Shown here one piece after another: positions 15,546 to 18,140 of a DNA stretch of 64,000 bases (the stretch's first letter is position 1; each line of letters starts with the position of its first letter). Under the pieces are notes generated by a model that had not been told where the DNA came from, searched no databases, and saw nothing but the letters and a program-made list of their open reading frames with translations. Both the position numbers and the translations under genes were made by a program. The stretch spans positions 1 to 64,000 of the forward strand of contig NZ_BJYJ01000008.1 in assembly GCF_007991455.1 (NCBI RefSeq). Reading direction: 5' to 3'. This stretch comes from Chryseobacterium hagamense. Its GTDB lineage: Bacteria; Bacteroidota; Bacteroidia; Flavobacteriales; Weeksellaceae.

Positions 15546-15585
15546 ATTGGCTGAATTAATTTATTTTTATCTTTTTAAAACAGCC

Positions 15586-16413
15586 ATGAAAGATCAGCTC
15601 GAAGACATTATCCTTCAGGTTCACCGTAAAGAAAAACGGAACCTTTTTACTTTTTTAACCGGTGCCGGAATTTCATCCGACAGCGGGATCCCGACCTACC
15701 GCGGAACCGACGGTATCTGGGTAAAAGGGACGCAGTTCCATAAGCCGGAAGAGTTCGGAACATTAAAATATTTTAAACAGTATCCAGAAGAAGTCTGGCA
15801 GTATGCTTTATTCAGGAAGAAAATGTTTGAAACGGCCATGCCTAACCAGAGTCATCTTGAACTGTCAGAAATCGAGAGTATACTGAAGGACCGTTTTCAC
15901 CTCATTACCCAGAATATCGATAACCTTCACCGCCGTGCCGGCAATACAAGGCTGTATGAAATTCATGGAAACAACCGTGAAATCAAATGCTCCAACGGCT
16001 GCAAAGGCATTGTGTCCCTACCCGAAGAGATTACAGGAAAGGATATTGATGAAGACCTTACCCTGAAAGATACGGAACTGCTTACCTGCCCGGACTGCGG
16101 ACACCGGATGCGGCCGAATATCCTTTGGTTTGATGAATATTATGACGAAAAAACGAATAAAAAGTTCAGCGCGTTAAAGGTTGCGAAAAACAGCGGCGTC
16201 CTTTTTGTTATCGGGACCTCCGGTGCCACCAACCTCCCGCTGGCCATCGCTGAAACGACGTTGAAGTACGGAGGATACTTGGTGGATATTAATACCGAAG
16301 ACAACCATTTTACGGAACTGATTAAAAATAAAAAGAATAAGCTGATCATTCGTAAAAAATCAACCGAAGCATTAGCGGTGATCAAAGCGATTATTAAAAA
16401 TTTAAACCTATAG
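15586..16413 (+). CDS. SIR2-family NAD-dependent protein deacylase (sirtuin)
   Basis: The protein has 275 aa from the start MKDQLEDIILQ at 15586. The upstream in-frame start at 15547 would put 13 extra residues inside the preceding terminator. NAD-binding GAGISSDSGIPTYRG is at residues 26-40, TQNIDNLH at 108-115 and the catalytic His in YEIHGNN at 127. The structural zinc cysteines are C135-x3-C139 and C168-x2-C171. This is a full-length sirtuin domain without an added effector domain, so it is more likely a metabolic deacetylase or desuccinylase than a defence protein. The catalytic core is intact. A disrupted small gene begins 1 bp after its stop. Confidence 0.93.
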   Translation: MKDQLEDIILQVHRKEKRNLFTFLTGAGISSDSGIPTYRGTDGIWVKGTQFHKPEEFGTLKYFKQYPEEVWQYALFRKKMFETAMPNQSHLELSEIESILKDRFHLITQNIDNLHRRAGNTRLYEIHGNNREIKCSNGCKGIVSLPEEITGKDIDEDLTLKDTELLTCPDCGHRMRPNILWFDEYYDEKTNKKFSALKVAKNSGVLFVIGTSGATNLPLAIAETTLKYGGYLVDINTEDNHFTELIKNKKNKLIIRKKSTEALAVIKAIIKNLNL

Positions 16414-16414
16414 G

Positions 16415-16999
16415 ATGTTCGCATTTTCATTGGATACCGGAAAAGAAACTGATATAATTACTTTTATTGAGGATGTTAAAAATCTGGAAAGCAATAAAAC
16501 CAATCCGGGGTATCGTAAAATAACGTGAATTTGAGGTACAAACCGTAATATAAAGGCTGGAAGAGGGAAGCCGGAAGCCGGAAGTTTCTCTTCTCAGACA
16601 CAGGATCAAAGGTCCTGATCATCAAACTGAATAGGTTATCGCTTTATCAGAGGAGTTCTTATTCAATCCTGAATAACCGGCTTTTTCTAATCAGGGACAG
16701 ATTTTTCTTATTTTAAAGTCCTGAAAGGACGACTTAGTACAGGATAGGATAAAATCCTGTCGTAAGCATAAACCGTGTATTTGTTCCTGCACGATGAGTA
16801 TTAATCAAAATCCTGACTGAATCAGTCTCATTTTTATTTTTAAATAATATGCTGAATATGATATTGATACGGTCGAATTCACGTTAAAATAAGATTAATA
16901 CATGTTCATCAGAAAGAAAAATTGACTGATAAAATCGAAAAGGCCGTTAAAAATTATGAAAACCAAGGTTTTATCCATCTGCTGGATAATAATAACTAA
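16415..16999 (+). pseudogene. Small gene (about 71 codons) split by a MITE-like insertion
   Basis: An ATG 1 bp after the sirtuin stop opens MFAFSLDTGKETDIITFIED and so on; it reads 36 codons to TAAAATA (16516-16522), where the repeat element begins and soon introduces a TGA. On the far side of the element, after the second TAAAATA (16885-16891), the same phase continues RLIHVHQKEKLTDKIEKAVK ... FIHLLDNNN to TAA at 16997. Removing the element plus one direct repeat gives one uninterrupted 71-residue acidic/basic helical frame. The protein family is not recognised. The joined frame need not be the whole ancestral gene, but the restoration of phase argues strongly for insertion into coding DNA. 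Confidence 0.65.
16523..16884. mobile_element. MITE-like repeat element, copy A (362 bp)
   Basis: The element begins ACGTGAATTTGA and ends TCGAATTCACGT, i.e. terminal inverted repeats matching at 11 of 12 positions, and is flanked by 7-bp direct repeats TAAAATA. The interior has no long coding frame and is rich in small hairpins: ACAGGAT...ATCCTGT near 16740-16760, GACTGAATCAGTC near 16813, and AAGTCCTGAAAGGAC near 16717. Shared blocks with copies B and C include GGAAGAGGGATGCCG-like, AGGATCAAAG.TCCTGAT.ATCA and AAAATCCTGACTGAAT. It is non-autonomous; the mobilising transposase is not in the window. Confidence 0.75.
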
Positions 17000-17073
17000 T
17001 CATTACGTCCACCTTTATAAGCAACCTTAAAATCAGTAAATCCGACAAAAGCGGCCTGATCCTGAATGGATAG

Positions 17074-17496
17074 GTGTGGTTCAAACCTAAAGGATTTCAT
17101 AAAGTCTTCAAAATGTTTATCAACAATGAAGTTACGGAGAAGAATACCTGGAAAAAACTGCATTGTGATGAATTGCAGGGTTGGCTTGTTTTTGCAGGAT
17201 GCATTGTAAAACCCCGCCCGGACCGCGAAAACCTCGTAATCAGCATTGACGGAAATAACTTCCACAATCTAGATGGTTTTTACTGCACCCTTGGTGAGGA
17301 AATAAACGGAATCGGAGGATACTTCGGCAGGCAGCTGTATGCTTTATACGATTGCTTAAGAGGCGATTTCGGAGTAAAATCAATCCCAGAAATTACTTGA
17401 CATCATCACCAGCGCAGTAGAAAGCTTTTAAAAACAGATTTAAAAAAAATAATAGGTCTGTTTGAAGAATTTGGTATTTCTGTGATTTTAAAGTAA
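17074..17496 (+). pseudogene. Barstar-like immunity gene interrupted by an in-frame TGA
   Basis: The frame (GTG at 17074, or ATG at 17113) encodes WKKLHCDELQGWLVFAGCIV and then a barstar core: VISIDGNNFHNLDGFYCTLG, EEINGIGGYFGRQLYALYD, CLRGDFGVKSIPEIT. A TGA follows at 17398-17400 exactly where barstar-family proteins have a conserved Trp (TGG). After it, the same frame goes on HHHQRSRKLLKTDLKKIIGL and FEEFGISVILK to a TAA at 17494, matching the family's C-terminal helix and last strand. One TGG-to-TGA change therefore inactivates an otherwise whole gene. Barstar homologues inhibit barnase-like RNases; no RNase gene is visible beside it. Confidence 0.8.
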
Positions 17497-17525: not shown

Positions 17526-18140
17526 TTAATGCATATCATCATAAATCCTTACCAGGTCCACAATATTCTTCACCTGCAGCTTTTCGAATATTTTCTTTTT
17601 ATAGGTGCTGATCGTCGACATTTTAAGATTTAAGCTGTTGGAAATTTCGATATTCCCGTTGCCTTCCGCAAGAAGTTTAAATATCTGAAGTTCTCTCTTT
17701 GAAAGCCTGTCTACGGAGTGACTGTCTGCTGATTGCATGACCAGTTTTTTCATCATGTCTACGGTATAATAATAGCCTTCTTCAAAAACAGCACTGATCG
17801 CGGTAAGAATCTCCTCTTCCGATGCCATTTTATTGAGGTAACCGGCAGCACCTTCTTCCACATACTGGATGCCTACATTTTCATCATATGTTGAAAAGAT
17901 CAGGATTTTAAGCTGCTTCTGCTTTTTTTTAAGTTCTTTGATCATGGCTTTGAAAATACTCTGCGGTATATCAATATCAATAATAAGGAGGTCATAGGCC
18001 CTCTTGGAAACTTTTTCTCTGGTTTCGGTATAAGTTTCCGCAAAATCGATTTCACAGGAATATGGAAGTTTGGTTTCGATTACAAGAGCAGTACCTGTTC
18101 TTACAACATAATGGCCGTCAGCAATAAGTATATTTTTCAT
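17526..18140 (-). CDS. LuxR/NarL-type response regulator (orphan)
   Basis: The protein has 204 aa: an N-terminal receiver (about 1-125) and a C-terminal LuxR-type HTH (about 140-202, LSKRELQIFKLLAEGNGNIE ... TYKKKIFEKLQVKN). The phospho-acceptor is probably D55 in YDLLIIDIDIP, with Pro four residues on as in NarL. The acidic pocket is incomplete: the usual Asp-Asp pair after strand 1 reads D8-G9 (ILIADGH). The conserved Thr/Ser and Lys regions are present (ILIFSTYD, GYLNKM). No histidine kinase is adjacent, so its partner is elsewhere. It should act as a cytoplasmic DNA-binding regulator, and 660 bp of non-coding DNA upstream leaves room for complex control. Confidence 0.9.
   Translation of the reverse strand: MKNILIADGHYVVRTGTALVIETKLPYSCEIDFAETYTETREKVSKRAYDLLIIDIDIPQSIFKAMIKELKKKQKQLKILIFSTYDENVGIQYVEEGAAGYLNKMASEEEILTAISAVFEEGYYYTVDMMKKLVMQSADSHSVDRLSKRELQIFKLLAEGNGNIEISNSLNLKMSTISTYKKKIFEKLQVKNIVDLVRIYDDMH

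Follow-up and report, generated by a model that had tools for sequence, protein, structure and literature searches.

What kind of gene once stood at positions 17074-17496 of the forward strand, and how was it lost? Within the 64,000-nucleotide stretch of DNA analysed here (henceforth referred to as the window), these positions form one frame on the plus strand that is interrupted by a sole TGA at 17398-17400, and a preliminary description, made from the letters alone, took the frame for a barstar-like immunity gene killed by a single TGG-to-TGA change. To begin with the frame itself, its translation with the TGA read as X matches Pfam Barstar (PF01337) with an E-value of 3.2e-8 and 33.9 bits, and the portion 5' of the TGA alone still scores 25.6 bits (E 1.2e-5). 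As both scores exceed the curated Pfam cut-off of 23.4 bits, the barstar similarity of the frame is real and not a matter of chance. A genome-wide Pfam search placed the barstar domain at 17236-17472 (plus strand, 34.2 bits), while neither NCBIfam nor PADLOC returned a match for the window frame or for two intact members of the family to which it belongs. The TGA is real and falls on the invariant Trp of that family, which is present in 45 of the 45 intact members aligned. The view that this is a barstar-family frame, that it is dead and that its stop replaces a conserved Trp is thereby borne out. We are, however, highly confident that a different history applies than the one first proposed: positions 17074-17496 are the 3' half of a multiply broken pseudogene, which derives from an orphan, recurrently lost barstar-domain gene.

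The parent gene was recognised from its relatives. A 127-aa query, running from the ATG at 17113 to the end of the frame with X at the stop, found matches in 56 of 173 genomes of the genus (the source genome included), and most of these contain an open frame of ~235-300 aa. The nearest copy, S8, comes from a metagenome-assembled Weeksellaceae genome (G136), is intact, encodes 237 aa and is 81% identical; the other named records with the gene are eleven Chryseobacterium and one Tenacibaculum. The family has a common architecture of ~237 aa, in which an N-terminal half with no Pfam match is followed by the barstar domain, and four intact relatives score 40.9-46 bits against Pfam Barstar (E 9e-12 for the S8 protein). 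Beyond the genus the family is scarce: among 320 genomes at the family level near full-length copies were found in two (G239 and G193), and an order-level search of 395 genomes gave 12 matching genomes at an E-value of 1e-10 or better, namely eleven from the genus and G239. A literature search for barstar in Chryseobacterium returned nothing relevant and, although we do not claim that the family is unpublished, it is a little-described orphan barstar-domain family.

The window contains considerably more of this gene than the frame that drew attention to it. A sirtuin (SIR2) gene lies directly upstream at 15547-16413 (plus strand; Pfam SIR2, E 9.2e-36), and the ATG of the family gene is found at 16415, the sirtuin stop ending one base earlier. 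From there the family profile matches in three pieces, with 16415-16534 corresponding to profile positions 1-39, 16883-17005 to positions 33-73 and 16996-17493 to positions 71-236. Together with the alignment to S8, these matches delimit a 5' fragment at 16415-16521 (plus strand), from the start codon to an insertion, and a 3' fragment at 16891-17496 (plus strand), which continues through the TAA of the family frame. The insertion itself, at 16522-16885, is a MITE-like element of 364 bp that ends in inverted repeats of 10 bp (AACGTGAATT) and is flanked by a 5-bp target duplication, AAAAT, at 16517-16521 on the left and 16886-16890 on the right. The element has 46 matches in its own genome, 41 of them with an E-value below 1e-50; short A/T-rich target duplications flank several of the genomic copies of this repeat family. 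Further into the gene, one base has been deleted relative to S8 at 16994-16999 (the exact base being ambiguous), and the frame so shifted runs into a TAA. An in-frame TAG follows at 17071-17073, at a variable position of the family, and the GTG at 17074 is simply the next codon, situated in the middle of the gene and a start only in the list of open reading frames. On the far side, a LuxR-type response regulator (17526-18140, minus strand; Pfam Response_reg and GerE) forms the convergent flank. The intact S8 gene starts 3 bases past its sirtuin stop and ends near a convergent response regulator, and the family gene lies between the same genes in S8 as in the window.

Overall, the window copy carries at least four lesions (the MITE-like insertion, the one-base deletion, the TAG and the TGA), as called against S8 from one assembly of one strain; with the nearest intact copy at 81% protein identity, the reference by which the one-base deletion and the TAG are recognised is a rather remote one. 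What is seen here, several disabling lesions relative to an orthologue at the same place, is the pattern by which a pseudogene is recognised. The proposal of a single killing substitution therefore falls, and the neighbouring 'MITE-disrupted gene', which had been described as a separate casualty, turns out to be the 5' portion of this very gene, so that the two earlier readings merge into one gene. Nor does the locus lie in a decaying island, as had been suggested, for both flanking frames, sirtuin and response regulator, are open, and members of the family usually occupy this slot between conserved genes. Whichever of the lesions came first would have abolished function, and the others would then have accumulated without constraint.

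Simpler histories of the frame fare poorly against these observations. A free-standing barstar gene, starting from the GTG at 17074 or the ATG at 17113 and killed by one recent TGA, would agree with a frame that is open but for this codon and that scores above the Pfam cut-off, but in each of the genus's 42 intact loci the start lies ~110 codons farther upstream, an N-terminal fragment persists in the window and a TAG precedes the GTG, and we consider such a gene very unlikely. It is highly improbable that the TGA is an error of sequencing or assembly and conceals a gene that is truly intact: a single base could be wrong, yet the one-base correction would leave in place the frameshift, the second stop and a 364-bp insertion that belongs to a genomic repeat family and has its target duplication. 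The earlier expectation that a G at 17400 would restore an intact gene fails for the same reason, in that the other lesions remain. Read-through or recoding of the stop to yield a functional product is scarcely credible, even though the barstar similarity carries on 3' of the TGA, since the gene contains two different stop codons, with a frameshift and the 364-bp insertion upstream, and a reassignment of TGA would be of no help with these.

The multiply broken pseudogene nevertheless appears to be young in one respect. The third codon position accounts for a share of 0.65 of the differences between the window copy and S8, compared with 0.51-0.56 between S8 and three functional relatives, and when the changes were polarised with one outgroup, 31 silent and 23 protein-changing codons fell on the window branch and 17 silent and 12 protein-changing codons on the S8 branch. 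As the codon-position bias has been retained and relaxation is undetected, most of the divergence predates the loss. Measured against the separation from the nearest intact copy, inactivation was thus fairly recent, although it was not a single step. Of the 'very recent loss' proposed earlier, the recency finds support in a bias that is still of the functional type, whereas the single step does not stand. Drift alone would not be expected to repair the substitution pattern, but exact dating of the loss is beyond what this pattern can give.

Is such loss peculiar to the window? Besides the window copy, the gene is intact in 42 of 55 genus loci, where 'intact' denotes that one frame covers 97% or more of a family query, and is not intact in 13, one of which (L091) is marginal at 96% and differs at its C-terminus. 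Of the 117 genomes without a match, 40 were picked, non-randomly, down a list ordered by similarity of the 1013-aa gene found upstream; 39 of them contain no remnant and one (G003) retains a short C-terminal piece. In 33 of the 40 the slot was fully spanned, the retrieved 8.3 kb containing both the 1013-aa gene and NFU, and a remnant was present in none of the 33. In the four no-match genomes that are nearest to the window by the 1013-aa gene, the gap between the sirtuin and response-regulator matches amounts to only ~33-91 bases. When the loci were placed on a tree built from MRP, a flanking gene, the labels broken and intact required at least 12 changes among the gene-carrying rows, and at least 30 changes were required once absence was added as a third state; these counts come from a quick search over the 77 of 96 loci with a full-length MRP gene, in which gain and loss are not distinguishable. 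We conclude that the family gene is recurrently lost; its complete absence may reflect deletion or may be ancestral.

The surroundings of the gene bear on what the intact copies might do. A homologue of the 1013-aa upstream gene is present inside the fetched region at 54 of the 55 other loci. Where a family frame is present (51 loci), the closest gene on the upstream side is a DUF3060 gene at 20, the 1013-aa gene at 17, the sirtuin at 7, a HEAT-repeat gene at 5 and another gene at 2, and the nearest downstream neighbour is NFU at 21, Band_7 at 13, a response regulator at 6, neighbour cluster c10 at 6, cluster c13 at 3 and another gene at 2. No adjacent toxin family was recognised in the Pfam-scanned neighbour clusters, which comprise all except c0, c13, c22, c27, c77 and c83, and within the same scope no barnase-type RNase gene, for which the preliminary description had advised looking in relatives, was recognised beside the family gene either. 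In PMC3482391, HEAT-repeat and ankyrin genes are counted among the immunity classes; the HEAT neighbour at five loci and an ankyrin neighbour in Tenacibaculum are therefore weak hints of immunity. In that Tenacibaculum relative (L043:3872-7162), the small genes include one ankyrin-repeat and one DUF6896 gene, an arrangement that resembles a mixed immunity array.

The distribution of nucleases was also compared with that of the family. Matches to PF00545, the barnase-type RNase, occur in 66 of 173 genus genomes, and were found in 19 of the 55 family-matching genomes (own genome excluded) and 47 of the 117 non-matching ones, which indicates no association; all of these counts are lower bounds, as the search missed the RNase of the source genome itself. 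That RNase lies on contig 20 (G000:C20:54078-54754; L129, L131), where an open Ribonuclease frame stands beside an open canonical barstar frame, and because it has a barstar of its own, the window gene is not the immunity gene of this RNase. The term 'immunity gene' used at the outset is accordingly unproven, with no toxin gene recognised beside the relatives' copies and a separate barstar for the genome's own RNase. A separate observation concerns genome G156 (L240:685-3557), in which an 849-aa RHS-like frame with a terminal barnase-type domain is followed by a 107-aa frame that has no match in Pfam; when family proteins were compared by tblastn with this RHS region and with one region of G118, nothing fell under an E-value of 0.29.

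We considered two kinds of role for the intact copies. They would most likely be orphan protective proteins against an incoming toxin, a role that would fit a solo gene with a patchy presence and frequent loss. Alternatively, the intact family may serve as a housekeeping RNase inhibitor or as a partner of the upstream sirtuin, unrelated to defence or immunity. That the gene stands alone in a conserved slot of the chromosome, and that it starts 1 base (window) or 3 bases (S8) after the sirtuin stop, speak for this; but only 7 of the 51 loci with a family frame have a sirtuin as their closest gene upstream, and many species lack the gene or carry it broken, which is at odds with housekeeping. 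We regard this alternative as possible, though on the unlikely side.

A more specific version of the orphan protective role was suggested by the N-terminal half. In four members this half has no Pfam match above the cut-off, TssD included. The predicted model of residues 1-106 (L031:4671-4988) is confident (mean pLDDT 86), and as a predicted fold it is like Hcp/TssD (PF17642), with a best Z of 8.4 to the Hcp of Bacteroides fragilis (77 residues, rmsd 2.6), a value close to the structure tool's stated background of 7 to 8, and a Z of 7.5 to Hcp1 of Flavobacterium johnsoniae. By title, 45 of the 50 structure matches listed are T6SS, phage-tail or contractile-injection proteins. Foldseek with residues 1-106 gave no E-value of 0.001 or below, and hhalign against 31 TssD sequences gave a P of 0.84, which does not surpass unrelated controls and therefore lends no support from sequence. 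Linkage to T6SS is uninformative, TssD being found in all 24 genus genomes (own genome included) among the 39 searched. The Hcp likeness, which comes from a predicted model, is thus a lead. It is rather doubtful, if conceivable, that the family is an Hcp- or tail-tube-like domain fused to a barstar-like inhibitor, which stays at one chromosomal slot, acts as solo protection against nuclease effectors of T6SS or comparable systems and is lost repeatedly where no matching weapon is nearby; if this were true, the window would capture one such loss in mid-course.

Overall, the interest of the locus lies in the family and its pattern of loss and not in the TGA, the window copy being a case of ordinary decay. 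The genus offers a small natural series, in which the same slot holds an intact gene, a broken one or none, and this series could be used to ask what retains or removes orphan inhibitor genes.

Compared with known systems, the family resembles Bacillus barstar (PDB 1a19, 1brs) in its C-terminal sequence (phmmer E 5.9e-5, profile E ~1e-6). The AlphaFold model of S8, in which residues 161-187 are under a pLDDT of 50, aligns to barstar at a Z of ~6 (rmsd 2.9, 72 residues). In the barstar residue numbering, which agrees with the phmmer alignment, the positions aligned to D39, C40 and W53 are conserved in 44, 44 and 45 of the 45 members, respectively. D35 and D39 are the barnase-contact acids of barstar. 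In contrast to D39, where Asp is the rule, just 3 of 45 members have Asp at the position that corresponds to D35, which argues against a barnase-like partner and points to another; barstar contact residues vary with the partner. The comparison suggests a barstar-like protein with a different partner, the intact copies of which would act like barstar in covering a nuclease active site. Unlike barstar, the family has an extra N-terminal part of ~150 residues, and unlike barnase-barstar pairs, it has no recognised RNase gene adjoining it, the window copy being broken besides. The contig-20 barstar of the same genome shares the barstar domain with it but is a short single-domain protein adjacent to an RNase. 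From orphan immunity and polyimmunity loci (PMC3482391, PMC12247911) the Chryseobacterium-group gene differs in that it stands solo in a fixed slot and not in an array, and in that its protection is putative; it resembles them in having an immunity-type domain without an adjacent toxin and a patchy distribution, and genes for ankyrin repeats and a DUF lie close to its Tenacibaculum relative.
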